Assembly: GCA_003725585.1 (NCBI GenBank)
Contig: RJMB01000003.1
Span: 248,001 to 312,000, forward strand
Length of the DNA stretch: 64,000 nucleotides
Direction: 5' to 3'
DNA from: Halostreptopolyspora alba
GTDB lineage: Bacteria; Actinomycetota; Actinomycetes; Streptosporangiales; Streptosporangiaceae
The translations under genes and the position numbers were made by a program. The notes below the pieces were generated by a model. The model worked only from the letters and a program-made list of their open reading frames with translations. It was not told the DNA's origin and ran no database searches. Of this stretch, positions 41,318-62,481 are shown one piece after another; the stretch's first letter is position 1; each line of letters starts with the position of its first letter.

Positions 41318-41406
41318 TGGTCAAGCGTTTAATTCTGAGAAGTTGGCGTTATTCATGCTAAACTTTCACATCGGTGAGAGGGTCAAGCGAACGTGAGGTA
41401 CATCAC

Positions 41407-41805
41407 ATGAGGATCGGTGAGCTGGCCAGACGGACAGGGGTCAGCGAACGGCTGCTGCGCTATTACGAGGAGCAGGGGCTGCTCCAGCCGCGACGGCGTC
41501 CGAGCGGGTACCGGGAGTACGAGGACGCCGATGTCGAGACGGTGATCCGGATCCGGACATTGCTGGCCGCCGGGCTCAACACGGCTCTGATCGCCCAGAT
41601 ATTGCCCTGTTTTCTGGATAACGGCGAGTATCTCGTTCCCACCTGCGCGGAAATGGTGAACGACCTCCACAGGGCCCGCGAACAGATCACGGTTACGATT
41701 GATGAACTCCTACGCTCGCGAACCGCGTTGGACGAGGTGATCGCGGCCGCCCCTCCCCAGGACGCCGAACCCGCCGTGTCGTCCACCCCACCGAGAGACG
41801 AGTGA
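41407..41805 (+). CDS. MerR-family transcriptional regulator
   Basis: This 132-residue protein has the MerR winged HTH at the N-terminus (MRIGELARRTGVSERLLRYY, then EEQGLLQPRRRPSGYREY), a coiled-coil helix (about 80-115) and a short Pro/Ala-rich tail without the metal-binding Cys cluster, so an organic ligand is likely. ATG at 41407 fits the family N-terminus. It is divergent from the DHA2 exporter. Confidence 0.92.
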   Translation: MRIGELARRTGVSERLLRYYEEQGLLQPRRRPSGYREYEDADVETVIRIRTLLAAGLNTALIAQILPCFLDNGEYLVPTCAEMVNDLHRAREQITVTIDELLRSRTALDEVIAAAPPQDAEPAVSSTPPRDE

Positions 41806-42696
41806 CGCGAAGTGGCCCGTGGCTCTGGGGCGGTCGAGCCGCAGTAGTCAGTGTTGTACCGGCCGCCCGGGTGGGACCGGGGTCGGGTTCGTGGGGCATC
41901 GACCGTGAGCACGACACCGACGGTGTCCGGTGAGCCGAGAGGCTCTCGACCGCGACACCCCCGCTACCCCGTTGGTGGCGCCCACCCGCCGTTGCGCGGC
42001 GGCGTGATCGTCCGGGGTGGTGGCCACATCGGTGCGCGGTCGCCCGCTGGACACCGGCCGACGATCCGCGGAGCACCGCGCCGCCCATGACCGGGACGGC
42101 GGTCAGCCGGAGGCGTTCAGGGGCCGGGGTACCGGGTGGCCCGGGGCCGTAGTGCGCCAAGGAACGGTGGTGTAACGGGGGCCGAACCAGCGGAGCGTGG
42201 TCCCCGTTTTCCGTGCACCTCGTTGGTGGCTCGGGGCTCCCCATACTCGTCATGCTGCCGTGACCGGGAACTCTCCGCCGAATCAGTGGTGATCCCAGGT
42301 CAGCCATGACCACCTCGACTCGTCACCGAGAGTGTTTTTCTCGTCGCATGGTGCACCCGAAGTGCCGAACCGCGGTTTCCGTTCGTAAGTGCGGACTCTA
42401 TGGGACGAAGTGCGGACTATTTCATTGGTTCTTGCGGTTCTTTGGAAAATTCGGGGGCTTCGTTGACACCGACTTAGGGGTGTTGCAAGACTCTATTGGT
42501 GGATATGCGAGCCGAGCTGAACTAATTGACTGAACAGGAATTTTGTGAGGCGCGGGCATCGTCGTGCTTCCGTTTTTCTGTGGTTTTTCGTTCGTCCTGA
42601 TTTGGGTTCCCTGTGCCGCGTTCTCGTGTATCGGAGATTCTGTGAGATCTCCTTATCTGTCGTGGTGGACGGGGGTTCCCGGAAGGTGGTACACGG
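41806..42696. promoter_or_regulatory. long intergenic region upstream of the biosynthetic operon, with tandem repeats
   Basis: No gene is supported in these 891 bp. The left half is GC-rich with several short dyads. The right part (42320-42690) is AT-richer and carries AAGTGCGGACT at 42387-42397 and again at 42408-42418 (21-bp period), with a related AAGTGCCGAAC at 42360-42370. Direct repeats about two helical turns apart are the type of site that SARP activators use, and a SARP gene lies downstream of the cluster. Confidence 0.55.
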
Positions 42697-43677
42697 ATGC
42701 GGGTCCTTGTGACCGGTGGCGCGGGATTTATCGGATCGCACTTCGTGCGAGAGCTCTTGCGTGACTCCTATCCCGCGATTGCGGGAGCTGAAGCGGTTGT
42801 CCTGGACAAACTCACCTATGCCGGAAACCGAGCGAACCTGAGCCATGTCGAGGGAAGCCCGCGGTACGAGTTCGTGCACGGCGATATATGCGACTCCGAG
42901 CTGGTCGGAAAGGTAATGGCGGGTGTCGACCTGGTCGTGCACTTCGCCGCCGAGTCTCATGTCGACCGTTCGATCACGGATTCCTCCGAATTCGTGCGTA
43001 CCAACGTTATGGGCACGCACACCCTGCTCAACGCCGCCAGGGACGCCGGTGTGCACCGCTTCGTTCATGTGTCGACGGACGAGGTGTACGGCTCCATCGC
43101 GGAGGGTTCCTGGACGGAGAGCGCCCCCTTGAGGCCGAACTCCCCGTACGCGGCTTCCAAGGCAGCCTCCGACCTGCTGGCCCTGGCCTTTAACCAAACA
43201 CACGGCCTGGATGTCGTTATCACGCGTTGCTCGAACAACTATGGCCCGTACCAAAATCCCGAGAAGGCGATTCCGCTGTTCGTGACGAACCTGCTCGACG
43301 GACTCTCGATCCCACTCTACGGGGACGGGGGCAACGCGCGAGACTGGCTGCACGTCGACGACCATTGCCGCGGCATCTCTTTGGTGGCTGAGAAAGGTCG
43401 CACCGGAGATGTCTACAACATCGGTGGCGGGACCGAGCTCACCAACAACGAGTTGGTTGAACGGCTGCTGAGTCTCTGCGGCGCCGACTGGTCGGCTGTC
43501 CGGAGAGTGCCTGATCGGAAAGGTCACGACCGTCGTTACTCGCTGGATGTGACGAAGGCGCGCACCGAGGTGGGCTACGAGCCCCGAATCCCGATCGAGG
43601 ACGGATTGATGAGCACGGTCCACTGGTACTGCGAGAACCGTGAACGTTGGGCTCCCTCGCGGGTTACCGCGAAATAG
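42697..43677 (+). CDS. rmlB: dTDP-glucose 4,6-dehydratase
   Basis: This 326-residue enzyme converts dTDP-glucose to dTDP-4-keto-6-deoxyglucose, the entry step for deoxysugars. The NAD motif is GGAGFIGSHF, catalytic Thr-Asp-Glu occur in HVSTDEVYGS and the YxxxK pair in SPYAASKAASD; RCSNNYGPYQNPEK is typical of the family. ATG at 42697 follows GGAAGG. It is the first gene of the forward biosynthetic run, immediately downstream of the repeat-bearing region. Confidence 0.95.
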   Translation: MRVLVTGGAGFIGSHFVRELLRDSYPAIAGAEAVVLDKLTYAGNRANLSHVEGSPRYEFVHGDICDSELVGKVMAGVDLVVHFAAESHVDRSITDSSEFVRTNVMGTHTLLNAARDAGVHRFVHVSTDEVYGSIAEGSWTESAPLRPNSPYAASKAASDLLALAFNQTHGLDVVITRCSNNYGPYQNPEKAIPLFVTNLLDGLSIPLYGDGGNARDWLHVDDHCRGISLVAEKGRTGDVYNIGGGTELTNNELVERLLSLCGADWSAVRRVPDRKGHDRRYSLDVTKARTEVGYEPRIPIEDGLMSTVHWYCENRERWAPSRVTAK

Positions 43678-43764
43678 GTCCCTTTTCCGAGGACGTCTCA
43701 TCTCGGAGGAACCAGCTCCCGTTCCGCTGTCGGCCAGGAAATGGCGTACAAGGAGATCCTCAAC

Positions 43765-44742
43765 ATGACCCAACCGAGCAGTTCCCGAGCTCTGGTCGTC
43801 GTGCTCGGCGCGTCCGGATTCGTGGGATCGGCGGTTACCACGGCACTCGCACGTTGCCCGGTCCGCCTGCGGGCCGTGGCTCGTAGGCCAAGCGTGGTCC
43901 CCGCGGGCCAGGCGGAGACCGAGGTGCGTACGGCCGACCTCACTGACCAGAGTCAATTGTCGGACGTGGTGGCGGGCGCTGACGCGGTGATCAACCTGGT
44001 CAAGCACGACGGTGGATGGCGAGCGGCGGAGGAGGAGTCGACCAGCAGGCTGACCAACGTCGACGTCATGACCTCTCTCGTTGAGTCGCTGCGCGGGGGT
44101 GACCGGGACGGACGGCCACCGGTGGTGCTGTTCAGCGGCACGATCTCCCAGATCGGGGTCCCTCCGGACCATCCCATCGACGGCACCGAACCCGATGAGC
44201 CCATCACCGCCTATGACCGGCAGAAGCTGGCCGCTGAGCAGGTGTTGAAGAAGGCCACGGCCGATGGGGTGGTACGCGGCGCCAGCCTCCGACTGCCGAC
44301 CATCTTCGGTCACGGTCGCACACCGGAGTCGGCCGATCACGGGGTGGTGGCGACGATGGTGCGGCGAGCGCTGGCGGGCCAGGAACTCACGATGTGGCAC
44401 GACGGCACGGTGGAACGGGAGTTCATCTACGCGCCCGACGTGGCCGACGCCTTCCTGGCCGCCCTCGACCACGCTGATGACCTCGCGGGAGGACACTGGC
44501 CACTCGGTTCCGACCGTAGTGAGCCGCTGGGAGACGTCTTCCGCGAGATCGCCGAGAGGGTGGCCGCTCACACCGGAGGACCGGCGGTCCCCGTGGTCTC
44601 GATTGACCCGCCGGCCCACGCGCCCGTGACCGACTTCAAGAGCGTGCGCGTCGACTCCTCACGCTTCCGCGCGATCACCGGCTGGAAACCCCGGGTTCCG
44701 TTGGGTGAGGCGGTGCGGAACACCATCGCCGCTCTGGCCTAG
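43765..44742 (+). CDS. NDP-hexose 4-ketoreductase
   Basis: This 325-residue Rossmann-fold enzyme of the NDP-hexose 4-ketoreductase group (as in anthracycline and macrolide sugar pathways) has NAD motif VVVLGASGFVGSAV, TSQIG-like FSGTISQIGVP and the YxxxK pair in AYDRQKLAAE. It would reduce C4 of the 3-amino-2,3,6-trideoxy sugar; stereochemistry (rhodosamine versus megosamine type) cannot be read. The Met at 43765 is chosen because AAGGAG lies 9 bases upstream; a Met eight codons earlier has a poor site. Confidence 0.87.
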   Translation: MTQPSSSRALVVVLGASGFVGSAVTTALARCPVRLRAVARRPSVVPAGQAETEVRTADLTDQSQLSDVVAGADAVINLVKHDGGWRAAEEESTSRLTNVDVMTSLVESLRGGDRDGRPPVVLFSGTISQIGVPPDHPIDGTEPDEPITAYDRQKLAAEQVLKKATADGVVRGASLRLPTIFGHGRTPESADHGVVATMVRRALAGQELTMWHDGTVEREFIYAPDVADAFLAALDHADDLAGGHWPLGSDRSEPLGDVFREIAERVAAHTGGPAVPVVSIDPPAHAPVTDFKSVRVDSSRFRAITGWKPRVPLGEAVRNTIAALA

Positions 44743-44773
44743 ACGAAACGAACACCGCAGCGAAAGGGAGCAC

Positions 44774-45496
44774 ATGTACGGACCCGAACTCGCCGAATTC
44801 TACGACAAGGTATACGAGATGCGCGGAAAGGACTATCGCGGGGAAAGCTCGTACGTGACCGAGATGATCCGCTCCTGCTTTCCTGACGCCCGTTCCCTCC
44901 TCGACGTCGGATGCGGAACAGGAGCCCACCTCGCCTTCTTCCGCGAGATGTTCGACCACACCGAAGGAATCGAACTGTCCGAGGACATGCTGTCCATCGC
45001 TCGGCGGAGGTTGCCGGGGGCACCCCTTCATCAGGGGGATATGCGCGCCTTCGACCTGGAACGACGCTTCGACGCGATTGTCTGCCTGTTCGGGTCGGTT
45101 GGGCATATGGCCACACAGCACGAACTGGAACAGGCGTTGACGTGCTTCGCGCGCCATCTCCCCCCGGGTGGTGTGGTCGCGATCGAACCCTGGTGGTTCC
45201 TGGAGACCTACCTCGACGGCTACGTGTCGGGTGACGTTGTCACCCCTGACCACCGGACAATCGCGCGAGTCTCGCACACGAAACGCGAGGGTGCCGGTTC
45301 GCGTATGCAGGTGCACTACGTGATCGCGGACCGGGACTCCGGAGCCCGGCACTTCACCGAGGAGTACACCCACCGACTCTTCACCCGCGAGGAATACGTG
45401 AAGGCACTGGAAGTCGCGGGTTTCACACCCGACTACATCGACGGGGTCCTCGGCGGACGTGGACTCTTCCTCGGGACCCGGAAGGGAGAGAACTGA
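44774..45496 (+). CDS. dTDP-3-amino-sugar N,N-dimethyltransferase (DesVI/TylM1-like)
   Basis: This 240-residue class I SAM methyltransferase has a [20 protein letters not shown] opening and the SAM loop [12 protein letters not shown], with [18 protein letters not shown] following, closely matching the DesVI/TylM1 group that dimethylates the 3-amino group of dTDP-hexoses. ATG at 44774 follows AAAGGGAG. It lies directly before the aminotransferase gene, which starts 1 bp after its stop, so the two are surely co-translated. Confidence 0.9.
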
Positions 45497-45497
45497 C

Positions 45498-46607
45498 ATG
45501 ACACTGCGCGTGTGGGACTACCTGCCCGAATTCGCCGAGGAACGCGAGGAGATCCTTTCCGCCGTAGAGACGGTCTTCTCCTCCGGCCAGCTGATACTGG
45601 GAAAGAGCGTTCGGGGGTTCGAGGAGGAATTCGCCGCGTACCACGGTCTGGCGCACTGCGTGGGCGTCGACAACGGAACCAACGCGATCAAGTTGGGTCT
45701 GCAGGCGCTGGGAGTGGGCCCGGGAGACGAGGTCATCACGGTGTCCAACACCGCTGCTCCCACCGTGGTGGCCATCGACTCCCTCGGGGCCCGGCCGGTG
45801 TTCGTGGACGTGGGCGAAGACGACTACCTGATGGACACGGCCCAGGTCACGGATGTGATCACGTCTCGGACCAAGGCCCTGCTTCCCGTGCACCTGTACG
45901 GGCAGTGTGTGGACATGGCCCCCCTGCGTGGGCTGGCCGCCGAGCACGGTCTGCGGATCCTCGAGGACTGCGCCCAGGCTCACGGGGCCCGTCACCAGGG
46001 GCAACTCTCCGGGACCATGAGCGACGCGGCGGCCTTCTCGTTCTATCCGACCAAGGTCCTGGGAGCCTACGGCGACGGAGGGGGCGTGGTCACCTCCGAG
46101 GACGAGGTGAGCCGCCGGTTGCGGAGGCTGCGCTTCTACGGGATGGAGGATCACTACTACACCCTGGAGACTCCGGCGCACAACAGCCGGCTCGACGAGG
46201 TCCAGGCCGAGATCCTGCGCCGTAAGCTGACGCGGCTCGACGACTACGTCGCTGGGCGGCGCGCCGTGGCACAGCGGTACGCCGAGGGGCTGGGCGACAC
46301 CGACCTGGTCCTGCCGCGGACCGTCCCCGGAAACGAGCACGTGTACTACGTGTACGTGGTACGGCATCCCGAACGGGACCGCATCATCGAGGAGCTCAAG
46401 AACTATTCCATCTCGCTGAACATCAGCTACCCCTGGCCGGTTCACACCATGACCGGCTTCGCCCACCTGGGATACACGAAGGGCGACCTCCCCATAACGG
46501 AGAAGCTCGCCGGGGAGATCTTCTCGCTCCCGATGTACCCCTCACTTGGCCGGGAGCGCCAGGATCGGGTGATCGACGCCGTGCGCGAGGTGCTCGCACG
46601 AATTTAG
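45498..46607 (+). CDS. NDP-sugar 3-aminotransferase (DegT/DnrJ/EryC1 family)
   Basis: This 369-residue PLP enzyme of the sugar aminotransferase family has [18 protein letters not shown] and [13 protein letters not shown] near the N-terminus, the conserved [11 protein letters not shown] and the PLP Lys in [15 protein letters not shown]. With a 4-ketoreductase and an N,N-dimethyltransferase in the same operon, amination at C3 is the logical reaction. The Met at 45498 is chosen; the frame extends 13 codons into the methyltransferase gene. Confidence 0.92.
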
Positions 46608-46675
46608 CCGGACCGTCGAGACCGCTCGTCCCCCCGGCGGTTCCCGCCGGCCCGACAACGATTCGCGGAGATGTC

Positions 46676-47281
46676 ATGGAATCACGCAAGCTCGCCGTCG
46701 ACGGCGCTCTGGAGTTCACCCCGGAAATATTCCCCGACGATCGGGGGCTGTTCGTCGCTCCCTTCCAGGAGGCCGCGTTTACCGAGGCAGCGGGCCAACC
46801 GTTGTTTCGCGTAGCGCAGTCGAACCACAGCAGATCGAGGCGCGGAGTGGTCCGGGGGGTGCACTACACCGTCACACCGCCGGGAACCGCGAAATACGTC
46901 TACTGCGCGCGCGGTGAGGCGGTCGACATCGTGGTGGATATCAGGGTCGGTTCACCCACGTTCGGGCGATGGGACGTGGTGCGGATGGACCAGCGTGATT
47001 TCCGGGCGATGTACTTTCCGGTGGGCGTCGGCCACGCCTTTGTCGCGCTGAGCGACGACACCGTCATGTCCTACATGCTCTCGTCTGCCTACGTGGCGCG
47101 GAACGAACTAGCGCTACAAGCGCTGGACCCGGAGCTCGGGCTGCCGATCCCGACCGACATCGACCCGATCATGTCCGAGCGGGACCGAGTGGCACCAACG
47201 TTCGCCCAGGCGCAGGCCGAGGGGCTGCTGCCCGACTACGACACCTGCCAACGGATCGAAAGATCCGAAAACACCACATAA
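46676..47281 (+). CDS. dTDP-4-keto-hexose 3,5- or 5-epimerase (RmlC-like)
   Basis: This 201-residue cupin epimerase has the catalytic His in RGVVRGVHYT, Lys in GTAKYVYC, Tyr in SYMLSSAYV and Asp in SERDR, so the RmlC site looks complete. It would convert the D-sugar intermediate to an L-sugar. ATG at 46676 follows GCGGAGATGTC. Whether it acts at C3 and C5 or only C5 is open; for a 3-amino sugar pathway, C5 epimerisation is expected. Confidence 0.9.
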   Translation: MESRKLAVDGALEFTPEIFPDDRGLFVAPFQEAAFTEAAGQPLFRVAQSNHSRSRRGVVRGVHYTVTPPGTAKYVYCARGEAVDIVVDIRVGSPTFGRWDVVRMDQRDFRAMYFPVGVGHAFVALSDDTVMSYMLSSAYVARNELALQALDPELGLPIPTDIDPIMSERDRVAPTFAQAQAEGLLPDYDTCQRIERSENTT

Positions 47282-47361
47282 CCCGGGTACTGCAGTTTCG
47301 AGTTCACGGGGGAGAACCGCGCGTGGTCGTCGACGGGGTTTCGACAGGACAGGAGCGTAAA

Positions 47362-48066
47362 GTGGCCCAGAGGGAAGACCAGTTCCGAGAGCGGTACCAA
47401 AACGGCCTGACACTCGTGGAGAAACTGGGTAACTCGGGGGCGGTGAATGAGGAGTTCGAGCTGTTGGGGATGGAATGGGATCTCGTTCCCGGCGTGTTCG
47501 CGCCCCGCCCGGGAACGGGGACAGAGTGGTATACGACCGCCGTTCCCTATCCAGCTGACGGGCGTTTCCTGGAGATCGGTTCCGGTGCCGGGGTAACAGC
47601 GGTCTGGGCGGCGCTGCACGGGTGCTCCCACGTCACTGCGACCGACATAACCGAGGCCGCGGTCCGTAACACGCTGCGGAACGTACAACGGCACGGGGTC
47701 AGCGATCGGGTCACAGCGTTGCGTAGTGACCTGTTCTCCGGGCTCGATTCCGGGGAACGCTTCGACACTGTGTTCTGGAACTGTAGTGTGATCGAGGCCC
47801 CCGAAGAATTCGAGTACACGCGGGAGGTCGAATGGGCGATATTCGACCGTGGCTACGCCGCGCTCAGTCGATACCTTTCCGAGGTTCACGAGTGGCTTCT
47901 TCCCGGCGGGAGGGCGCTGGTCACGTTCAATAGCCTCGGCGATTTCTCCCGGATGCGGGAGTTGGCGGAGAGGTCCGGGGTCGCCCTCGACCGAATCGAT
48001 AGTTGCCAGCGATGGCTCGCCGAAGATCTCGTGACGTTCAACCTCTTCGAGGTTGTCTTGAAATAG
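47362..48066 (+). CDS. SAM-dependent methyltransferase, function unassigned
   Basis: This 234-residue class I methyltransferase has SAM loop FLEIGSGAGVTAVWAALHG and the acidic loop VTATDITEAAVRNTLRN. At motif IV, where N-glutamine/adenine methyltransferases have NPPY, it reads FWNCSVIEAP. The order of motifs resembles PrmC/L11-type small-molecule methyltransferases. The GTG at 47362 has AGGAG six bases before it; a GTG 13 codons upstream is less supported. Placed between the epimerase and glycosyltransferase genes, it may O- or N-methylate the aglycone. Confidence 0.78.
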   Translation: MAQREDQFRERYQNGLTLVEKLGNSGAVNEEFELLGMEWDLVPGVFAPRPGTGTEWYTTAVPYPADGRFLEIGSGAGVTAVWAALHGCSHVTATDITEAAVRNTLRNVQRHGVSDRVTALRSDLFSGLDSGERFDTVFWNCSVIEAPEEFEYTREVEWAIFDRGYAALSRYLSEVHEWLLPGGRALVTFNSLGDFSRMRELAERSGVALDRIDSCQRWLAEDLVTFNLFEVVLK

Positions 48067-48099
48067 TGTCCGTCCTTCCTGGTTCCAGAAGGAGTAGAG

Positions 48100-49233
48100 G
48101 TGAGAATTCTTTTCGTTACCCGAGGGAGTCCCGCGTCTATTTTCGGGCTTGTTCCCCTCGCGACCTCCGCGCGGAACGCGGGACACGAGGTCCTGGTCTC
48201 CTCGACGGAGTCGATGATGTCGGTCGTCAGTTCCGTGGGCCTGCCGGGGGTGCCTGTCACGGACCGTACGGAGGACTATTTCGGAAGGACGGACCGGAAC
48301 GGGGACCCGCTGTCCTTCCCCGACCACGGTGCTCGGCGGCAACGGTTGTTCGCGGGGGGCTGGTACGGACGGCTCGCCGCCGCCAGCATCGACAGACTGG
48401 TGGAGGTGGTGTCCTTCTGGCGTCCGGACATCGTTGTCGGTGGCCGTCTCGACTACGCGGCTCCCCTGGTCGCGTACTACCTCGGGGTTCCGTTCGTGCG
48501 GCAGGCGGTGGACATGGGGGAGTGGAGCGAGGTCGACGAAGGAGCCACCGAGGAGCTACAACCGGAGCTGAAGAACATCGGTCTCACCGAGCTTCCCACG
48601 CCTGACCTGCCCATCGAGATATACCCGCCGAGTCTGCGGCCGAAGAACGCGCCGCCCGCGGAACTCATGCGGTGGCGACCGGGAAACGTGCAGCGCACGG
48701 TCGAGCGGTGGATGGTGGTCCGTGGGACGCGCCCCCGAGTGTGTGTGACACCGGGCAGCCGGGCCACGCCGGAGGAGCACTTCGACTACGTCCGCTATCT
48801 CGTGGAGACCATCGGCGGGCTCGACGTGGAGCTCATCGTCGCGGTTCCCGACTCCTTGGCCACGGCGTTGAACGCGGTCGCCGAGAACGCCCGTGTGGGA
48901 TGGGCCCCACTCGACGTGATCGCTCCCACGTGCGACCTGTTCGTTCACCACGCGGGAGGAATGACCTCCCTGACCGCGTTGGACTCCGGGGTTCCGCAGC
49001 TGATCATGCCAGAAGAGGACGCCACGTACGAGCTGGGTGAACGCGTGTCCGATCTGGGTGCCGCGATCACCCTGCCGCGTTCCGCCGCGACAGCGGAGAA
49101 GATCCAGGACTCCTGTAGCGACCTCGTTTCGGACACGTCGTACCGGACGAGGGCGGAGGAACTGGCCGTTGAGATCAAGGATCTCACCCCGCCCACGGAG
49201 ATGGTGCCGGTAATGGAGAAACTCGTGGGATGA
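48100..49233 (+). CDS. GT1-family glycosyltransferase (antibiotic type)
   Basis: This 377-residue GT-B glycosyltransferase has N-terminal MRILFVTRGSPASIFGLVPL and the C-terminal nucleotide-sugar motif VHHAGGMTSLTALDSGVPQL, then MPEEDATYELG. This pattern is that of actinomycete deoxysugar transferases (anthracycline, enediyne, macrolide type). The start is GTG at 48100 with GAAGGAGTAGAG. It is the only glycosyltransferase in the cluster and probably attaches the aminosugar. No DesVIII-like P450-derived helper gene is seen. Confidence 0.92.
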   Translation: MRILFVTRGSPASIFGLVPLATSARNAGHEVLVSSTESMMSVVSSVGLPGVPVTDRTEDYFGRTDRNGDPLSFPDHGARRQRLFAGGWYGRLAAASIDRLVEVVSFWRPDIVVGGRLDYAAPLVAYYLGVPFVRQAVDMGEWSEVDEGATEELQPELKNIGLTELPTPDLPIEIYPPSLRPKNAPPAELMRWRPGNVQRTVERWMVVRGTRPRVCVTPGSRATPEEHFDYVRYLVETIGGLDVELIVAVPDSLATALNAVAENARVGWAPLDVIAPTCDLFVHHAGGMTSLTALDSGVPQLIMPEEDATYELGERVSDLGAAITLPRSAATAEKIQDSCSDLVSDTSYRTRAEELAVEIKDLTPPTEMVPVMEKLVG

Positions 49234-49424
49234 GGGTCCTCCCCCATTCTTCGCGCTCGTGCCGAACTCGCGTATTCGTCCGGACGCCCCGCGAGAGCGG
49301 GCCGCGGTGAGTCGGATTCGTCCCGAGGGTGCCGTGTCCGTTCCAAGTTCTGCGGGATCGAATGATCGAAATCCTGCGACCTGACGTCGTACTGCCGTGA
49401 ACCAGCCATTTATGGAGAGAATTA

Positions 49425-50600
49425 GTGGAACTAGTGACAGGGGCCGGAACCACCATGGAGCCCGCCCCACAACAGCCGCAGTGGAGGGACGAGGACGCGG
49501 TCGACTCCGTGAGGGGGGAGCTGGTCGAGCGACCGGCACTGGTCGACCCCCGGGATGTGCGTGCCTTGAAGGCGCAATTGGCCGAGGTCTCCTCGGGAGA
49601 GGCGTATGTCGTCCAGGCCGGGGACTGCGCGGAGGACCCCGAGGAGAACACCCGAGCGCACATTGTACGCAAGACGGCGCTTGTGGATCGGCTCGCCGCC
49701 GAGATGGCCATGGGGATGGGCAAACCGGTGCTCCGGGTCGGCCGTATCGCCGGCCAGTACGGCAAACCGCGTTCCAGTCCCACCGAACGGGTGGGAGGCG
49801 TGGATCTACCGGTCTTTCGCGGCCACATGGTGAACAGCCCGCACCCCGATTCCGACAGCAGGCGTCCCGAACCACGACGGCTCCTGTCGGGTTACGAGGC
49901 GGCCAGCACAGCGATGGAGCATCTCGGCTGGAACGGGGGTCCCCAACGTTTGAGTATCGGGCCGACCGTGTGGACCAGTCACGAGGCCCTCCTGCTGGAC
50001 TACGAGGTTCCGATGCTGCGCGGGGACGGAACGGGGCGGACGCTGCTCTCGTCGACGCACTGGCCGTGGATCGGGACGAGGACCGGCCGGGCGGACGGTG
50101 CCCACGTCGCCCTGCTCACCGAGGTCGAGAACCCGGTGGCCGTCAAGGTCGGCCCCGACAGGGAAATCGAGGAGATGCTCGCCGTGTGCCGGCGACTCGA
50201 TCCGGAGCGCGAGCCGGGGCGGCTGACTCTTGTCGCCCGGATGGGCGCCGACCTGGTGCTCGACCGGCTTCCTCGGCTCGTGGCGGCGGTGCGCGCCCAG
50301 GGACATCCGGTCATCTGGATGTGCGACCCAATGCATGGCAACACCGTTACCGCGTCGAGCGGAATCAAGACCCGTTACGTGCGGACGATCATCAACGAGG
50401 TCACCGGATTCCAACAGGCGGTGCGAGAGTCCGGAGGAGTCGCGGGAGGGCTCCACCTGGAGACCACCCCCGATGACGTCTCCGAATGCGCCCTCGACGC
50501 CTCCTCCGATGACCGTGTCGGAGAGCCCTACACGAGCCTGTGCGATCCCCGACTCAACCCGCGGCAAGCGCTCTCGGTCCTCGACGCCTGGCGCGGATGA
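49425..50600 (+). CDS. phzC: class II DAHP synthase (PhzC-like)
   Basis: This 391-residue enzyme condenses phosphoenolpyruvate and erythrose-4-phosphate, starting the shikimate pathway. Class II motifs are VVQAGDCAE (metal Cys), LRVGRIAGQYGKPRSSPTE, MCDPMHGNT and GLHLETTPDDVSEC. It lacks the N-terminal extension of about 60 residues found in regulated housekeeping enzymes, so it may escape feedback inhibition, as cluster-borne copies do. A GTG at 49425 with GGAGAG upstream is used. phzD and phzE follow on the same strand. Confidence 0.92.
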   Translation: MELVTGAGTTMEPAPQQPQWRDEDAVDSVRGELVERPALVDPRDVRALKAQLAEVSSGEAYVVQAGDCAEDPEENTRAHIVRKTALVDRLAAEMAMGMGKPVLRVGRIAGQYGKPRSSPTERVGGVDLPVFRGHMVNSPHPDSDSRRPEPRRLLSGYEAASTAMEHLGWNGGPQRLSIGPTVWTSHEALLLDYEVPMLRGDGTGRTLLSSTHWPWIGTRTGRADGAHVALLTEVENPVAVKVGPDREIEEMLAVCRRLDPEREPGRLTLVARMGADLVLDRLPRLVAAVRAQGHPVIWMCDPMHGNTVTASSGIKTRYVRTIINEVTGFQQAVRESGGVAGGLHLETTPDDVSECALDASSDDRVGEPYTSLCDPRLNPRQALSVLDAWRG

Positions 50601-50648
50601 GGGCGGCGCTAGGCGCTCCCACACTCTTCGGTAGTACCCAGGAGCATC

Positions 50649-51332
50649 ATGGCTGGCATACCTCACATCGCGCCCTACGCGATGCCGACGGCCGACGAAC
50701 TTCCCCGCAACACAGCGCGTTGGACTCTCGAGCCCGGGCGCGCGGTGGTGCTGTTTCATGACATGCAACGCTACTTCTTGCGTCCCTTCGACCCCGCGGC
50801 GGATCCTGCGCGGTCGCTCCTCGCCAACGCGAGCTCGTTGCGTTCCACCTGCCTCGCGCTGGGGATCCCGATGGCCTTCACGGCCCAACCAGGCGGCATG
50901 ACCAGGAAAGAGCGCGGATTACTGCACGACTTCTGGGGGCCCGGGATGCGGAGCGACGCCGAGGACCGCGAGATCGTGGAATCCCTCGCGCCCCGCCCGC
51001 ACGACTGGCTCCTCACCAAGTGGCGATACAGCGCCTTCTTCGGAACCGGTCTCCTGGACCGGATGCGCGCCCACGGACGCGACCAACTCGTCATCGGCGG
51101 CGTCTACGGGCATGTCGGCGTGCTCATGACGGCGGTCGAAGCGTTCACCAACGATATCGAGCCCTTTCTCGTCGCCGATGCCGTCGCCGACTTCTCGGCG
51201 GACTACCACCGCCTCACGATCGAGTACGCGGCTGGTCGCTGCGCCGTGGTCTCCGAAACCCAAGCGCTTATCGCCCAGCTCGACGACGAGCGAAGAACGG
51301 AACGAACCGGCCCCTCGGAGGTTGGAGCATGA
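50649..51332 (+). CDS. phzD: isochorismatase PhzD (2-amino-2-deoxyisochorismatase)
   Basis: This 227-residue cysteine-hydrolase-fold enzyme resembles PhzD in length and sequence. The catalytic Asp is in [14 protein letters not shown] and the Lys in [13 protein letters not shown]; the position of the Cys in ordinary hydrolases is within [12 protein letters not shown], where Gly occurs, as in PhzD-like enzymes. It should convert 2-amino-2-deoxyisochorismate to trans-2,3-dihydro-3-hydroxyanthranilate (DHHA) and pyruvate. Its stop overlaps the phzE start. Confidence 0.93.
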
Positions 51333-53257
51333 CTGAGGAACCGTCGAGGGGCGAACGCCTGCTGCTCCGGGCCGTGTCCGGACGTTCGCCCGCCTTCGCT
51401 CTGCTGCACCGCCCCGTCACAACCGGCGACACCGTCGATGTCCTGGTGGGAGAGGTGTCGACGCGGGAAACGTTGGGGGAGAACTCCTCGTTTGACGAGC
51501 GCCACGCGGAAACCCTCGTGGTGATCCCCTACCGACAGATCGCCGAGCGCGGGTTCGCGTGTGTCAATGACGAGACGCCGCTACTCACGATGAGGGTAAC
51601 CGAGCGCGCCGAATGTCCGGTCGGACGGGTCGTCTCGATGCTTCCCGAGAACTCCATTCAGCTCTCCGGGGGACACTTCGACGTCGACGACGACACCTAC
51701 GCCGCGATGGTCGAGCGGATCAGAGCGCACGAAATCGGCCAAGGAGAGGGCGCGAACTTCGTCATCAAGCGTTCCTACATCGCGGATATCACCGACTATT
51801 CGCCGAGCGTGGCACTGACACTGTTCCGGAGGCTCCTGAAGCGGGAGACGGGCGCGTACTGGACGTTCGTCGTGCACACCGGGGACCGGACATTCGTCGG
51901 TGCCACCCCCGAGCGCCATGTCAGCCTCCGTGACCAGAAGGCGGTGATGAACCCCATCAGTGGGACCTACCGCTACCCACAGGAGGGGCCATCCCTACAG
52001 GGGATCATGGAATTTCTCGCCGACACAAAAGAGACAGACGAACTCTACATGGTCGTCGACGAGGAACTGAAGATGATGTCCCGGATCTGTCAGTCCGACG
52101 TCAGATTAACGGGCCCCTACCTTAGGGAGATGTCGCGCCTGGCGCACACCGAGTATTTCATCACCGGCCATTGCACGCGTGATCCGCGTGGGATCCTGCG
52201 AGAGACAATGTTCGCCCCGACCGTGACCGGAAGCCCGTTGGCGAACGCCTGTCGGGTGATCAGCCGGTACGAACCCGCCGGGCGTGGCTACTACAGCGGG
52301 GTGATCGCGCTTGTCGGGGAGGACGAGCGCGGTGCCCACACCCTGGACTCGGCCATCCTGATCCGCACAGCCGACATCGACGCCGGCGGGAGGGCGCGAA
52401 TCGGTGTCGGTGCCACACTCGTGCGACACTCCGAGCCCGCATCGGAGGTCACGGAGACGCGGTCGAAGGCCGCGGGGCTGCTTTCCGCGCTGGACGCCAA
52501 CGAGGTCGACCGACTCGCCGACCAACCCGGCGTCAACGAGCTCCTGCGACAGCGCAACGACACCATATCCGGGTTCTGGATAGCGGGTGGGCGACAGCCG
52601 ATGGCGCCACCCCCGGACTTGGCTGGACTCCGTGTTCTGGTGGTCGACGCGGAGGACAGCTTCACCGCCATGCTCGAGCATCAGCTCCGCTCGTTGAACC
52701 TGACGGTGCGCGTATGTGGCGTCCATGAGCGCGTCGATCTCGACCACTACGACTTCGTGGTCATGGGCCCTGGCCCGGGAGATCCGAGGGATACGGACCA
52801 GCCACGGATCGCCCACCTACGGTCGCTGATCCAACGGTTGCTCACGGAACGGCGCCGATTCTTGGCAGTGTGCCTCAGCCACCAGGCGCTCGGCTTGGAG
52901 CTGGGTTTCGACCTGACCCGTCGGACCGTTCCCAACCAGGGGCTACAGCGAGAGATCGACCTGTTCGGCGTCTCGGAGCGTGTGGGCTTCTACAACACTT
53001 TCGCCGTGCGCAGCGCCGACAGCGAGGTCGTGCGCGCGGGCTTGGGAACCGTGGAGGTCAGCAGGGACACGGAAACCGGCGAGGTGCACGCGACACGCGG
53101 TCCGGGGTTCGCCTCTATGCAGTTCCACGCCGAATCGGTCCTCACGCAAAACGGCGTGTCGATCATCAGGCGGTTCGCGGAGGAGATACTGCGTTCCGGG
53201 AGCCGTTACGGGATTCCCGGGAAATCAGCCAACACGCGTTCGGAGGTTATCGGTTGA
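51329..53257 (+). CDS. phzE: 2-amino-2-deoxyisochorismate synthase PhzE
   Basis: This 642-residue fusion has an anthranilate-synthase-I-like chorismate-binding domain (about 1-410; [37 protein letters not shown]) and a class I glutamine amidotransferase domain (about 430-620) with Cys in [15 protein letters not shown] and the His-Glu pair in MQFHAESVL. PhzE makes ADIC from chorismate and glutamine, feeding PhzD. The ATG at 51329 overlaps the phzD stop, and the rmlA TTG overlaps its own stop. Confidence 0.94.
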
Positions 53258-54141
53258 AAGGAATAATTCTCGCCGGTGGAAGTGGGACCCGGTTGCGTCC
53301 GCTCACCGGGACACTGTCCAAACAGATACTACCGGTCTACGACAAACCAATGATCTATTACCCACTCTCGGTTCTCATGCTGGCGGGAATCCGGGATATC
53401 CTCATCATATCGTCCCGCTCGCACACCGCGATGTTCCGTTCTCTGCTGGGTGGCGGGGAAAGGCTCGGTCTGAGTATCGGATACGCCGAGCAGGAGGAGC
53501 CCAACGGCATCGCCGAATCTTTTCTGATCGGTGCCGACCACATTGGTTCTGACCAGGTGGCGCTGATTCTGGGGGACAATGTTTTCCACGGTCCCGGATT
53601 CTCCTCGGTTCTCCAGGAGAACGTCGGACAGCTGGATGGCTGCACGCTGTTCGGCTACCCGGTCACGAGCCCGGAAAGGTACGGAGTGGGAGAGGTCGAC
53701 CAGTCAGGGAGGCTGCTCTCCCTGGAGGAGAAACCCCAGCGGCCACGATCCAACCTCGCTGTCACCGGGCTCTACCTCTACGACAGCGATGTCGTCAATA
53801 TCGCGAAGAACCTCACGCCCTCCGCGCGCGGCGAGCTGGAGATCACCGACGTCAACCGGGCCTACCTCGAACAGGGGCGGGCACGGATGGTGGAGTTGGG
53901 ACGCGGTTTCGCCTGGCTGGACATGGGGACCCACGAGTCGCTGCTCCAAGCCGGACAGTACGTGCAGGTGCTGGAGCAGCGACAGGGCGAGCGGATCGCC
54001 TGCGTCGAGGAGGTCGCGCTGCGCATGGGCTTTATCAGCCCCGAGGAGTGTCGGCGGTTGGGACGCGAGATGGCGGGATCGGGCTACGGCGCCTACCTCA
54101 CGGAGGTCGCGCACCGCCACGAAGCGTCCTCCGCCGCGTGA
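53254..54141 (+). CDS. rmlA: glucose-1-phosphate thymidylyltransferase
   Basis: This 295-residue enzyme makes dTDP-glucose from dTTP and glucose-1-phosphate. It opens with [17 protein letters not shown] and has KQILPVYDKPMIYYPLS and LILGDNVFHG, all signature RmlA segments. The start is TTG (53254-53256), overlapping the phzE stop and preceded by GGAGG eight bases upstream. This links the deoxysugar and shikimate halves in one transcription unit. Confidence 0.94.
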   Translation: MKGIILAGGSGTRLRPLTGTLSKQILPVYDKPMIYYPLSVLMLAGIRDILIISSRSHTAMFRSLLGGGERLGLSIGYAEQEEPNGIAESFLIGADHIGSDQVALILGDNVFHGPGFSSVLQENVGQLDGCTLFGYPVTSPERYGVGEVDQSGRLLSLEEKPQRPRSNLAVTGLYLYDSDVVNIAKNLTPSARGELEITDVNRAYLEQGRARMVELGRGFAWLDMGTHESLLQAGQYVQVLEQRQGERIACVEEVALRMGFISPEECRRLGREMAGSGYGAYLTEVAHRHEASSAA

Positions 54142-54209
54142 CCCTCCGCCCCGGGGGCGACATTGGAGCCCCCCGACCCCACCCAGACACCCTCGAGGTG
54201 AGAGGCCAC

Positions 54210-55661
54210 ATGAGCACTACCCCCGCCCCGCGGACCAGACCGGTAGCCGACCCCGACACGTCACCGGCGCGTCGGATCGTCGCGTCGGCACTGGCTCCCG
54301 CGGGCGTCGTCGGTGACCTGACGGAGTTCCACCAGCGTCTCGTCGACGCCCAGAACCGGATCTACACGATCACCGAACGTGTTTCGCTGGACAGTCTGGA
54401 CCGGTGGAACTACGAACCGAGCCGGGGCGTCCTCGCTCACGAGAGCGGCAAGTTCTTCAGCGTCGAAGGAATTCGCGTTCGGGTTTTTGAGGACTCGGTT
54501 CGACAGTGGGACCAGCCGATCATAAGACAGCCCGAGGTGGGGATCCTCGGGATCCTGGTCAAGGAGTTCCACGGGGTGCTGCATTTCCTGATGCAGCTCA
54601 AGGCGGAGCCGGGAAACCGGAACGGTATACAGATATCCCCGACCGTGCAGGCCACACGGAGCAACTACATGGGAGTGCACGGCGGTGGCCGGGTGCCCTA
54701 TTTGGAGTACTTCCAGGATCGGGATCGGCACCGTGTGCTGGCTGATGTGCGCCAGTCCGAACAGGGCGCCTGGTTCCTGGGAAAGCGGAATCGGAACATG
54801 GTCGTCGAGGTGACGGAGGAGGTCGAACTGCTCGACGGCTTCCACTGGCTGACCCTCAACCAGATCCACCGATTACTCGCGCTGGACGACCTGGTCAACA
54901 TGGACGCCCGGACCGTGCTGTCCTGCCTGCCCTTCACCGGCGGCGGCGTGGCGGATGAGGGGCTTGGCGCTGCGTTGGACCGCTCCAGCGTCACTGAGCG
55001 GGGAGCTCACTCCATGGTGGCGCTTCTGAGCTGGATCACGGACACACGGACGCGACCCGAGGTGGATGTGCGCACCATCGCCCTCGACGAGCTGTCGCAG
55101 TGGCGGCGCACCCCCGAACGCATCGGACACCGGGAGGGTCGGTACTTCGACGTCATCGGGGTTCGCGTCGAGGCGGGCGGCCGCGAGGTCGGTCGGTGGA
55201 GTCAGCCGATGATCGCGGCGCGTGGCCCCGGAGTGCTCGCCCTCCTGGTGACTCGGGTCGAAGGGACCGTACACGTCCTGATGCAGACACGTGTCGAGCC
55301 CGGACTGACCGATGTTGTCGAGCTGGCGCCGACTGTGCAGTGCACCCCGTCCAACTACGCGCACCTGCCCGCCGCGTCCCGTCCCGCTTTCCTCGATGCG
55401 GTGCTACGGGCCGATCCCGGTCAGGTCAAGTTCGACACCATGTTGTCGGACGAGGGCGGACGCTTCTACCACACGAGCAATCGGCACCTCATCGTCGAGA
55501 CGGAGACTGGACCGCACCCAGAGCCCCCGGGATTTCGCTGGTTCACATTAGGCCAGCTGACGGAGCTGTTGCGGCACAGCCACTATCTCAACGTTCAGGC
55601 ACGCAGTCTGGTCGTGTGTCTGCGGAGTCTGGTCAGCGCCCAGAGCGACCGACACCGGTAA
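54210..55661 (+). CDS. NDP-hexose 2,3-dehydratase
   Basis: This 483-residue protein consists of two tandem NDP-hexose 2,3-dehydratase domains (about 35-255 and 265-475), each with the Q-P-x-I/M core (WDQPIIRQPEVGIL; WSQPMIAARGPGVL) and the downstream SPTVQATRSNY / APTVQCTPSNY block. It removes the C2 hydroxyl from dTDP-4-keto-6-deoxyglucose; the 3,4-diketo product is the substrate of the 3-aminotransferase. ATG at 54210 follows GAGAGG. Together with the aminotransferase it defines a 3-amino-2,3,6-trideoxy sugar. Confidence 0.93.
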   Translation: MSTTPAPRTRPVADPDTSPARRIVASALAPAGVVGDLTEFHQRLVDAQNRIYTITERVSLDSLDRWNYEPSRGVLAHESGKFFSVEGIRVRVFEDSVRQWDQPIIRQPEVGILGILVKEFHGVLHFLMQLKAEPGNRNGIQISPTVQATRSNYMGVHGGGRVPYLEYFQDRDRHRVLADVRQSEQGAWFLGKRNRNMVVEVTEEVELLDGFHWLTLNQIHRLLALDDLVNMDARTVLSCLPFTGGGVADEGLGAALDRSSVTERGAHSMVALLSWITDTRTRPEVDVRTIALDELSQWRRTPERIGHREGRYFDVIGVRVEAGGREVGRWSQPMIAARGPGVLALLVTRVEGTVHVLMQTRVEPGLTDVVELAPTVQCTPSNYAHLPAASRPAFLDAVLRADPGQVKFDTMLSDEGGRFYHTSNRHLIVETETGPHPEPPGFRWFTLGQLTELLRHSHYLNVQARSLVVCLRSLVSAQSDRHR

Positions 55662-56055: not shown

Positions 56056-56127
56056 CCGTGGGGAGCGCGGAACACCGGCCACCGGCTCGGGAGGAATAAT
56101 CCCGGTCCGGCGCTGTTGACAAGTCGT

Positions 56128-57147
56128 GTGAAGAAGATCGGATTCCTGTCCTTTGGACACTGGACACCCTCACCGCGTTCCTGGGTGCGGTCGGCCTCCG
56201 ACGCCCTGCGACAGTCGATCGAGCTGGCGGTCGCCGCCGAGGAGGTCGGCGCCGACGGCGCCTATTTCCGGGTGCACCACTTCGCCCGGCAGCTGGCCTC
56301 GCCGTTCCCGCTGCTCGCCGCGATCGGAGCACGAACCGACCGGATCGAGATCGGTACCGGTGTGATCGACATGCGTTACGAGAACCCGCTCTACATGGCG
56401 GAGGACGCCGGATCCGCGGACCTGATCGCCGGCGGACGGCTGCAGCTGGGGATCAGCCGCGGCTCACCGGAGCAGGTCATCAAGGGGTATGAGTACTTCG
56501 GCCACCGGCCCGAGGAGGGCTCCACCGACGCCGACATGGCCCGGCAGCACACGGCGCGGTTCCTCGAGGTCCTCACGGGGGAGGGGTTCGCCGAGCCGAA
56601 CCCGCGGCCGATGTTTCCCAACCCGCCCGGGCTGCTGCGGATCGAGCCGCACTCGCCGGGGCTGCGCGAGCGAATCTGGTGGGGCGCGGGCACCCGGGCG
56701 AGCGCGCGGTGGACCGGCGAACAGGGCATGCACCTGATGAGTTCGACACTGCTCACAGAGGACACCGGGGTGCCCTTCCACCAGCTGCAGGCCGAGCAGA
56801 TCCAGCTCTTCCGCCAGGCGTGGCAGGACGCCGGCCACGGCGGTGAGCCACGGGTGTCGGTCAGCCGCAGCATCTTCCCCATCGTCAGCGAGTTCGACCG
56901 ACGGCTGTTCGGCGGTGAGACCGCCAGCACCGACCAGGTCGGCCACCTGGACAACGGGCTCGCACGGTTCGGCAAAACCTACGCTGGCGAGCCCGACCAG
57001 CTGGTCGAAGAGCTGGCGCGGGACGAGGCCGTGGCCGCGGCCGACACGCTGCTGCTCACCGTGCCCAACCAACTCGGGGTGGACTACAACGCCCACATCC
57101 TCGACAGCCTGTTGCGTTACGTCGCCCCCGAGCTCGGCTGGCGCTGA
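56128..57147 (+). CDS. LLM-class flavin-dependent oxidoreductase
   Basis: This 339-residue luciferase-like monooxygenase/oxidoreductase has IGFLSFGHW at the first strand, FRVHHFARQLASPFPLLAAIG, IEIGTGVIDMRYENPLYMAEDAG split over the third strand, and GRLQLGISRGSPEQ. It starts at GTG 56128 (VKKIGFL) or, less likely, TTG 56116; neither has a close ribosome site. It directly follows the biosynthetic run and could be a tailoring enzyme for DHHA or the aminosugar, or an unrelated neighbour. A hairpin closes the unit. Confidence 0.83.
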   Translation: MKKIGFLSFGHWTPSPRSWVRSASDALRQSIELAVAAEEVGADGAYFRVHHFARQLASPFPLLAAIGARTDRIEIGTGVIDMRYENPLYMAEDAGSADLIAGGRLQLGISRGSPEQVIKGYEYFGHRPEEGSTDADMARQHTARFLEVLTGEGFAEPNPRPMFPNPPGLLRIEPHSPGLRERIWWGAGTRASARWTGEQGMHLMSSTLLTEDTGVPFHQLQAEQIQLFRQAWQDAGHGGEPRVSVSRSIFPIVSEFDRRLFGGETASTDQVGHLDNGLARFGKTYAGEPDQLVEELARDEAVAAADTLLLTVPNQLGVDYNAHILDSLLRYVAPELGWR

Positions 57148-58155: not shown

Positions 58156-58855
58156 GAGCGCCGGGGGAGCGGGGCTCAGGTGGGTTCCGTCGCGCTTCTC
58201 GGTGCTACCCGCGTCGCGGCCGCCTCTCTGGGGTTGGGTCTCGGCGTGTCCCCAGCCCTGGCCCACGCCGATGGCGGGGGCCAGGGGCACAGTGGCCTCA
58301 CCCGCGCGGAGGCCGCCGTCGAACGGGATGACGGGCTGATCGTCGTCCCGCTCACCGACCGGCCGCACCCATGGCTGCCCGCGGCGTCGGCGGAACCGAC
58401 CTGGCGCGCGGCGGGGAAAGGGCTCGGGAAAGCGCTGTCGCGGGTCGGATGAAGTGGGCACCGGACTTTCCGGTAACCCGATCCGGCGCGCCCGGGAGTG
58501 AGTCCTCTCCTATCGCGATCGCTGGTTTCGTCTTTCTGTCACCGCGACTTTCCGGTGCCCCCTGAACGGGTACACCACCGAGGACGGGGCGTCTCCAGCC
58601 CTTTTCGCGTCGCATCGTATTCATTTGCATTCGCATGGTTTAATGCATGTGCATTTGCTTAATTCGTGTTTCGGGGTGGATATAAACCCGTTTCCTTGTG
58701 GTGAATGTTCTCTTTCTTGTGGTGGGGGGTTTAAGGGGATCGTTTCTGTTTTTGCTGGCGAGCGCGATGGACGATCTTGGTGAGTTCGAGGTTGTATTCA
58801 GGTTCGTGGGTATCTGTACTCGTTGACGGGATTAATTCGGATGCGAGGTGGTTTG
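58156..58855. promoter_or_regulatory. upstream region of SARP gene with AT-rich repeats
   Basis: The left part may encode a small protein (see 58180). The right part (58560-58855) is AT-rich. Around 58622-58660 the heptamer CATTTGC occurs twice 30 bp apart, with GCATTCGCATG and GCATGTGCATT between them, forming overlapping direct and inverted repeats. This may be an autoregulatory or pathway-specific operator for the SARP gene. Confidence 0.45.
58180..58452 (+). CDS. possible small secreted protein, uncertain
   Basis: A 90-codon frame starts at GTG 58180. Its first 29 residues look like a signal peptide (hydrophobic run ending in SPALAHA), and the rest has no motif. A GGGGCTCAGG stretch is a weak ribosome site. 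It may be chance coding in high-GC DNA. Confidence 0.25.
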   Translation: MGSVALLGATRVAAASLGLGLGVSPALAHADGGGQGHSGLTRAEAAVERDDGLIVVPLTDRPHPWLPAASAEPTWRAAGKGLGKALSRVG

Positions 58856-61981: not shown

Positions 61982-62481
61982 AACGGTGTAGTCGAACTTT
62001 GTCACACCATCCTTAAAGAGGTGCTAGGGTGCCTGCGGCTGAGTGAGTACTCCTGCCCGGAGGTTCGGGCGCGGCCGGCCGCTTTTCCGTTTTCCCATAC
62101 GGCCGGCCGCTGGCACGCCTCCTCTCACGGCCATTTCCTGCACCACCGAGGAGAACAATGTTGTCCTTCACGGTAACTCACTGCGTCCTGTTTTTCATGG
62201 CTTCCACGAAGGTCGCAATGGGGGATTTCTCGCCAGAACAGGCCACCGAGGTCACAAATGTCCTCGGCTGGGCCCGGATATATCTGGCTGAGCCGTTCGG
62301 CTGAAAGGACAGCGCCTCATGTGTGACCGCCCCGGTGGCCCGTCGCGAGCGCCGTCGGGGGACACCGATCAAGGTCCACATCCAGTCTTTTGCGAGCCGG
62401 CTCAAGACGCCCGCAAGCGAGCTCTCCAGTCGCCGGGCCCACCGTTGTCTCGACCGCCCACCACAGCGACGGGAGGAGACG
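61982..62481. other. intergenic region with a possible small ORF
   Basis: These 500 bp separate the SARP gene from the GT-B-like gene. CGGCCGGCCGC occurs twice about 30 bp apart (near 62072 and 62102). A 48-codon frame with a good ribosome site is listed separately. The sequence at 62305-62481 has frames without recognisable features. Confidence 0.4.
62158..62304 (+). CDS. possible 48-residue small protein
   Basis: A short frame starts at ATG 62158, six bases after GAGGAG. It has a hydrophobic start (LSFTVTHCVLFFMAS) and a non-hydrophobic, protein-like end (FSPEQATEVTNVLGWARIYL). It ends 178 bp before the next annotated gene. No family is recognised. The codon use is less GC-biased than that of the neighbours, so it may be a leader peptide or a chance ORF. 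Confidence 0.35.
   Translation: MLSFTVTHCVLFFMASTKVAMGDFSPEQATEVTNVLGWARIYLAEPFG

Follow-up and report, generated by a model that had tools for sequence, protein, structure and literature searches.

Two fates of trans-2,3-dihydro-3-hydroxyanthranilic acid (DHHA) are known, namely isomerisation by PhzF, which leads to phenazines, and dehydrogenation to 3-hydroxyanthranilate. Here we describe a gene cluster of Halostreptopolyspora alba in which genes for DHHA formation are combined with genes for a dimethylaminosugar. The analysed stretch of DNA, referred to as the window, comprises 64,000 nucleotides (bases 248,001-312,000 of the 359-kb contig C23, RJMB01000003.1; the genome of 5.26 Mb consists of 68 contigs). 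The closest known relative is the paulomycin cluster (pau/plm) of Streptomyces paulus NRRL 8115 and S. albus J1074. As the cited sections describe, ring A of paulomycin is derived from DHHA, and its cluster shares with the window enzymes of the PhzE type (Pau18), the PhzD type (Pau19) and a 3-deoxy-D-arabino-heptulosonate 7-phosphate (DAHP) synthase (Pau21), next to the C-glycosyltransferase homolog Pau25 and homologs of RmlA, RmlB and the 2,3-dehydratase, which resemble further enzyme types of the window (PMC4425429, PMC4802897). On the paulomycin side only are the DHHA dehydrogenase Pau20, the monooxygenases Pau17 and Pau27, genes for paulic acid, neutral sugars and a second glycosyltransferase that is paired with a P450-like protein; the window instead encodes a second methyltransferase, here named MT2, and a dimethylaminosugar. 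The window departs from the paulomycin type in that no Pau20-type dehydrogenase was found in the cluster. Neither ring hydroxylases of the Pau17/Pau27 type nor a flavin monooxygenase were found among the proteins scanned between 38.4 and 63.7 kb, no genome-wide search for them having been made.

Gene sets of the 3-hydroxyanthranilate route (limazepine, tilivalline, diazepinomicin, calcimycin, caboxamycin, A33853) contain PhzE-, PhzD- and DAHP-synthase-type genes like the window, but according to the cited sections they, and known DHHA-route clusters in general, employ a DHHA dehydrogenase (lim4 homologs; PMC5958127), of which none was found in the window. With the phenazine pathway the window has PhzC, PhzD and PhzE in common. 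A phenazine cluster was nevertheless rejected, since PhzF is not encoded beside PhzC-D-E and the contig holds no match to its family (PF02567); the sole match in the genome is partial (model positions 9-82 of 281) and lies on contig C7. PhzA/B and PhzG were not recognised among the scanned proteins of the window, no genome-wide search for them having been made. Pathways for dTDP-sugars of the epivancosamine and rhodosamine type comprise, like the window, a 2,3-dehydratase, a 3-aminotransferase, an EvaD-type epimerase, a reductase and a DesVI-type N,N-dimethylation, whereas the window lacks a recognised sugar C-methyltransferase and the contig lacks genes for a polyketide or peptide acceptor. 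The C-glycosylation of mayamycin with angolosamine likewise depends on a dimethylaminosugar made by the same enzyme types and on one C-glycosyltransferase; there, however, the acceptor is an angucycline polyketide, and the cited section names no epimerase (PMC10817512).

The explanation which we favour, with a confidence slightly above even, is a self-contained and probably horizontally acquired route to a small amino-glycoside whose aglycone derives from DHHA. Twelve genes, all on the + strand and every reading frame open, are located at positions 42,697-55,661 and are accompanied upstream by an exporter gene of the major facilitator superfamily (MFS), which probably belongs to the cluster, and a regulator gene whose membership is uncertain:

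39,656-41,251, - strand: MFS exporter (DHA2-type), from family-model scans, with a 60% identical relative inside the cluster of Nocardiopsis suaedae
41,374-41,805, + strand: MerR-type regulator, from family-model scans
42,697-43,677, + strand: RmlB, dTDP-glucose 4,6-dehydratase (TIGR01181, 423.6 bits, above cut-off)
43,741-44,742, + strand: extended short-chain dehydrogenase/reductase (SDR), presumed sugar 4-ketoreductase (PF01370; no close solved relative)
44,774-45,496, + strand: sugar N,N-dimethyltransferase (top solved relative 3bxo)
45,498-46,607, + strand: sugar 3-aminotransferase of the DegT/DnrJ/EryC1/StrS family (family model; solved relatives 7b0d, then 2oga)
46,676-47,281, + strand: RmlC-like 5-epimerase, EvaD type (1ofn, 324.8 bits; next different protein 180 bits)
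47,323-48,066, + strand: MT2, second methyltransferase, predicted to methylate the DHHA-derived aglycone (family scan, tree, structure model)
48,100-49,233, + strand: glycosyltransferase near LanGT2/UrdGT2 (nearest solved structures 4rig/4rie and 2p6p)
49,425-50,600, + strand: class II DAHP synthase, PhzC-like (PF01474, 416 bits)
50,649-51,332, + strand: PhzD, 2-amino-2-deoxyisochorismate (ADIC) to DHHA (top solved relative 1nf9)
51,329-53,257, + strand: PhzE, ADIC synthase (3r74, 714.7 bits, sole match at that threshold)
53,254-54,141, + strand: RmlA, glucose-1-phosphate thymidylyltransferase (TIGR01207, 414.1 bits, above cut-off)
54,210-55,661, + strand: NDP-hexose 2,3-dehydratase (PF03559, 518.5 bits)

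The starts at 44,774, 45,498, 51,329, 53,254 and 54,210 are corrected ones. We take the structures to be those of EvaD (1ofn), DesVI (3bxo), DesV (2oga), LanGT2 (4rig/4rie), UrdGT2 (2p6p), PhzD (1nf9) and PhzE (3r74). Family models and solved relatives thus confirmed, on the + strand, the sugar, glycosyltransferase, DAHP synthase, PhzD and PhzE genes where the first-pass annotation, a reading of the letters and open reading frames, had placed them; its list of parts was incomplete, as MT2 had been overlooked and the exporter had been left out.

By homology, the DAHP synthase would raise the supply of chorismate, which PhzE would convert to ADIC and PhzD to DHHA. PhzD keeps Asp38 and the equivalent of Lys122, presumably its key residues, and PhzE is the only one of the four chorismate-binding enzymes of the genome that is encoded on C23. 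MT2 would then methylate the DHHA-derived aglycone, with the carboxylate a less likely site than the nitrogen or the 3-oxygen. The window appears to hold a complete gene set for a 3-(dimethylamino)-2,3,6-trideoxy-L-hexose, with RmlA, RmlB and the 2,3-dehydratase assigned by family models and the ketoreductase recognised as an extended SDR only. In the predicted sugar route these three enzymes, the 3-aminotransferase, the EvaD-type epimerase, the DesVI-type methyltransferase and the SDR reductase would together yield the dTDP-activated sugar, which the single glycosyltransferase would link to the aglycone before export by the MFS protein. For an O-glycoside of methyl-DHHA a composition of C16H26N2O5 with [M+H]+ at 327.19 was calculated.

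The arrangement of the genes agrees with one pathway joining the dimethylaminosugar to the PhzC-D-E branch, as the first-pass annotation had proposed. The genes of PhzD and PhzE and those of PhzE and RmlA overlap by four bases each (ATGA and TTGA, respectively), pointing to joint expression of scaffold and sugar genes. The region from 38 to 56 kb has a GC content of 64.8% compared to 70.2% from 1 to 38 kb, which is consistent with a horizontal gain. Further support for a single pathway comes from Nocardiopsis suaedae (genome G008, contig NZ_JAQFWP010000044.1), where nearly the same gene set is found in another order and on both strands. Its proteins are identical to those of the window by 77% (aminotransferase), 69% (RmlA), 66% (MT2), 63% (glycosyltransferase), 62% (RmlB), 61% (PhzD), 60% (the MFS exporter), 58% (PhzE), 55% (DAHP synthase), 51% (dehydratase), 49% (N-methyltransferase) and 30% (reductase). 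The identities of 49-77%, leaving aside the reductase and the epimerase, indicate that the cluster of the window is more than a chance assembly. Over the 56.6 kb of the Nocardiopsis contig that were read, no relative of the epimerase was detected, so a D-sugar may be formed there. Among 394 genomes of the class the only relative of the glycosyltransferase above 60% identity is the one of N. suaedae; five further relatives at E ≤ 1e-100 are 46-49% identical.

Scaffold genes just outside the window, which according to the first-pass annotation would speak against its proposal, were looked for along the whole contig: ketoacyl-synthase (17 matches genome-wide), condensation-domain (11 matches genome-wide) and PhzF-family models had no match on C23, in agreement with the claimed absence of a polyketide synthase (PKS) or nonribosomal peptide synthetase (NRPS) scaffold. 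The genome-wide scaffold search covered ketoacyl-synthase and condensation domains, type III PKS and stand-alone adenylation domains lying outside it. Genes for two AMP-ligases, at 30.7 and 33.2 kb, neighbour acyl-CoA dehydrogenase genes and lie outside the stretch of low GC content.

The connection of MT2 with DHHA was deduced from its relatives. Among the 341 genomes of the family, 57 have an MT2 match at E ≤ 1e-15, the window's own included, and only two relatives besides the window reach at least 60% identity, in G008 (66%) and in G344 (63%), a genome of the genus of Streptomonospora mangrovi. In a tree of 24 sequences chosen from the 59 MT2 loci, the proteins of the window, N. suaedae, Kribbella antibiotica, Streptomyces ruber, Actinokineospora terrae, A. 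diospyrosa and G344 form a clade of seven with a support of 100/99. All seven genomes encode PhzE, the six others at 51-62% identity. By comparison, PhzE occurs in two of the five genomes with a more distant MT2 (47-50%) and, at E ≤ 1e-60, in 10 of 99 genomes related to that of the window, N. suaedae included. In six of the seven clade members, the window counted, PhzC-D-E are encoded at most about 12.5 kb from MT2; in S. ruber they lie on separate contigs (a carboxylic acid reductase beside MT2 in L081, PhzC-D-E in L160). The further partners of MT2 differ: it is accompanied by the sugar module in the window and in Nocardiopsis, by ATP-grasp-type ligases in Kribbella and by a carboxylic acid reductase in A. 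terrae, A. diospyrosa and G344. These three share a sugar-free cluster type consisting of DAHP synthase, PhzD, PhzE, the reductase and MT2 (L158 2,146-17,707; L159 1,327-16,775; L043 6,146-19,656, respectively), and in A. terrae a gene for S-adenosylmethionine synthetase follows MT2. The cluster of K. antibiotica (L079 10,004-19,671; MT2, DAHP synthase, PhzD, PhzE and two ATP-grasp-type ligase genes) is perhaps directed to DHHA-type peptides. Reductases and ligases as partners suggest that the carboxylate stays free.

The AlphaFold model of MT2 has a mean pLDDT (predicted local distance difference test) of 92.4. Foldseek returned the carbamoyl N-methyltransferase Asc-Orf2 first, followed by a methyltransferase of the gentamicin pathway and structures of KMT9/N6AMT1 and PrmC, and VIA-align gave Z values of 20-22 to N6AMT1, Asc-Orf2 and HemK. 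As many of these fold relatives act on nitrogen, N-methylation is slightly favoured, though a common fold shows no function. The motif NPPY is characteristic of the PrmC/HemK glutamine methyltransferases, whereas residues 153-156 of MT2 read N-C-S-V. MT2 shares the fold of these enzymes but scores below their family cut-off (TIGR03534, 50.1 bits versus 199.1).

The PhzC-D-E sets of the MT2 clade do not appear to descend together. A joined tree was calculated from 26 sources with all three genes (G033, G063, G081, G089, G028 and L096 were left out), and in approximately unbiased (AU) tests a single clade of the sets of all seven MT2-clade members was rejected (p-AU 7e-36), as was a clade of the window and Nocardiopsis (p-AU 1e-6); the Nocardiopsis set is sister to that of G346 (100/100), and for PhzE a grouping of the window with S. 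ruber was not rejected (p-AU 0.128). MT2 thus seems to have become associated with differing DHHA cassettes, which would be expected if their product is its substrate. It counts against this view that the tested groups were named after the trees had been viewed and that Kribbella and G030 form long branches, and the rejections are accordingly strong hints and not proofs. As a guide to product type the PhzE tree, from which 12 of 40 rows had been removed as duplicates of places already represented, was discarded, since it did not sort by neighbouring genes and the branch of the window was not resolved.

On this basis we tentatively propose, with less than even confidence, that PhzC-D-E together with the MT2 clade represent an undescribed third fate of DHHA, i.e., methylation while still non-aromatic and subsequent glycosylation in the window and Nocardiopsis, reduction by the carboxylic acid reductase in Actinokineospora, G344 and perhaps S. 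ruber, or ligation to amino acids in Kribbella, resulting in a family of small dihydro-aromatic products. If MT2 indeed acts on DHHA itself, the node from which phenazines and 3-hydroxyanthranilate products arise would gain a third branch, which would provide a methylated chiral cyclic beta-amino acid as a building block. As MT2 has apparently been joined more than once to unrelated PhzC-D-E sets, a single enzyme assay would suffice to test the claim.

Regarding the aglycone, the first-pass annotation had named DHHA or 3-hydroxyanthranilate. The latter is the less likely of the two; in the absence of the known DHHA dehydrogenase we lean towards methylated DHHA. A relative of at least 45% identity is not present at any of the seven MT2-clade loci, and at E ≤ 1e-40 none was found in the genomes of the window, Kribbella or S. 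ruber, while the controls G346 and G034 were recovered in this search. A paulomycin-like C-glycoside of 3-hydroxyanthranilate or of a methyl derivative, made with a dehydrogenase encoded elsewhere or an unrelated SDR and with the aminosugar attached to carbon by the UrdGT2-like enzyme, appears unlikely to us, and the loss of Pau20 argues against it as well: according to the cited section, a pau20 mutant of S. paulus recovered with 3-hydroxyanthranilate, whereas DHHA had no such effect (PMC8097395). Several observations nevertheless weigh against a DHHA glycoside and lend weight to the C-glycoside, for which paulomycin itself is a precedent. The genome of the window encodes 20 SDR matches (29-37% identity, the best SDR 35%), and an unrelated dehydrogenase could aromatise DHHA; SDRs of 33-34% identity occur in the stretches read near MT2 in Kribbella and S. 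ruber. Of the six further genomes of the MT2 clade, four (N. suaedae, G344, A. terrae and A. diospyrosa) encode one or two dehydrogenase relatives of 54-58% elsewhere. The more distant MT2 often adjoins a dehydrogenase: among 59 MT2 relatives from named genomes, 16 lie at most about 10 kb from genes for PhzD and PhzE, each of more than 50% identity, and 10 of these 16 loci include a relative of at least 45% identity. LanGT2 variants and UrdGT2 are about equally close to the glycosyltransferase as nearest solved structures, so a C-type enzyme is as near as an O-type one; in the segment separating the two the window has T-D and later F, as in the C-type, but this match is weak and not kept in N. 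suaedae (S-E and Y). To our knowledge a non-aromatic acceptor would be unusual for this glycosyltransferase family. The product is predicted from the genes. In the caboxamycin producer an EntA-type enzyme could replace CbxG, as far as the cited section reports, and the same source describes cross-talk between clusters (PMC5481532).

Such cross-talk would also suit a DHHA-sugar unit that serves as a building block of a larger product, with a PKS, NRPS or RiPP (ribosomally synthesised and post-translationally modified peptide) scaffold encoded elsewhere, which we regard as improbable. Ketosynthase and condensation domains are indeed present on other contigs, and in N. suaedae and three Streptomonospora-type genomes of one other genus the DHHA cluster is neighboured by a NarL-type regulator and a thiazole/oxazole-forming YcaO fusion that is 61-67% identical among them (L040 14,005-16,332; L164 1,672-4,179; L044 8,956-11,190; L045 2,321-4,123). 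Neither domain has a match on C23, however, the window and the 56.5 kb flanking it yielded no YcaO relative, and with its own exporter and a full sugar set the cluster looks self-contained. An incomplete or decaying cluster without defined product is highly improbable in our judgement: although a degenerate-looking IS701-type gene lies at the border and neither dehydrogenase nor hydroxylase is encoded, all twelve frames are open, PhzD has retained both residues mentioned above, and nearly the same set is kept in a second genus.

A self-contained DHHA glycoside pathway thus remains our preferred explanation. The cluster appears coherent and orphan, with paulomycin as its nearest relative despite clear differences, and is not categorically new. 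In the open-access literature we found no glycoside of DHHA or 3-hydroxyanthranilate with a dimethylaminosugar, which is weak evidence, as subscription papers mostly lie outside it. The statement that no described compound class is built from these parts holds insofar as no fitting compound was found there, but has to be restricted, as paulomycins join PhzE, PhzD, DAHP synthase, a C-glycosyltransferase and deoxysugars (PMC4425429, PMC4802897, in the sections cited). The predicted very small, basic glycosides form a class that is likely ranked low by PKS/NRPS-driven mining.

Some relatives of MT2 have other surroundings. Another sugar cluster with a 51% MT2, an epimerase and a 39% glycosyltransferase occurs in G346 and S. 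mangrovi (L045 7,226-19,500; L044 91-6,400); that of G346, as read, comprises PhzC-D-E and a DHHA dehydrogenase. Distant MT2 relatives of Streptomyces (L122 9,923-12,786; L118 9,815-12,978) adjoin a gene whose product is 30-31% identical to PhzE, and these anthranilate/aminodeoxychorismate-synthase-like neighbours may reflect a wider link of the MT2 family to chorismate.

Genes annotated as IS701-like transposases were detected at 40 of 53 MT2 loci, in 33 of the 40 on the same strand and 3.3-4.0 kb upstream of MT2, and at one of 22 loci of a comparison set (L055, L056, L059-L078); the 53 exclude L079-L083 and L089, for which longer stretches of their genomes were used instead. The genes mostly lie at 6,000-7,700 in L084-L137, and at 5,007 (L046), 3,889 (L047), 17,980 (L158), 17,950 (L159) and about 12,077 (L041). 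In none of 49 aligned proteins is the Asp of the first catalytic motif, present in the reference copies L174 and L175, preserved; it is replaced by R (24), Q (15), H (8), G (1) or S (1). The protein looks domesticated, and no publication on such a protein was found in the open-access literature. In G344, G346, A. terrae and A. diospyrosa, but not in Kribbella, G030 and G033, the only IS701-type gene of the genome stands beside PhzC-D-E. The cluster of the window is likewise bordered by the sole IS701-type match of its genome (38,412-39,527), in which the first catalytic Asp is replaced and the family model is partly missing; this gene differs from the group near the other MT2 loci, and no convincing inverted repeats flank it.

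At its 3' side the cluster ends before 56,116, the start of a luciferase-like gene (56,116-57,147). This gene was ruled out as a tailoring enzyme, since 85-92% identical relatives exist in five of the six related genomes that were searched, among them G001, a genome without a PhzE match at E ≤ 1e-60. A comparison with three related genomes revealed no empty insertion site, as they shared only the luciferase-like gene and, as a 33% match, one gene far upstream. The frame at 41,693-42,313 (- strand) and a protein of 462 amino acids at 62,323 matched no family. TTA codons, which are frequent in bldA-controlled clusters, occur once each in phzD and phzE and twice in the 2,3-dehydratase gene (within 50,649-55,661). 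A large regulator of the SARP/AfsR type is encoded at 58,823-61,981, about 3 kb downstream of the cluster.

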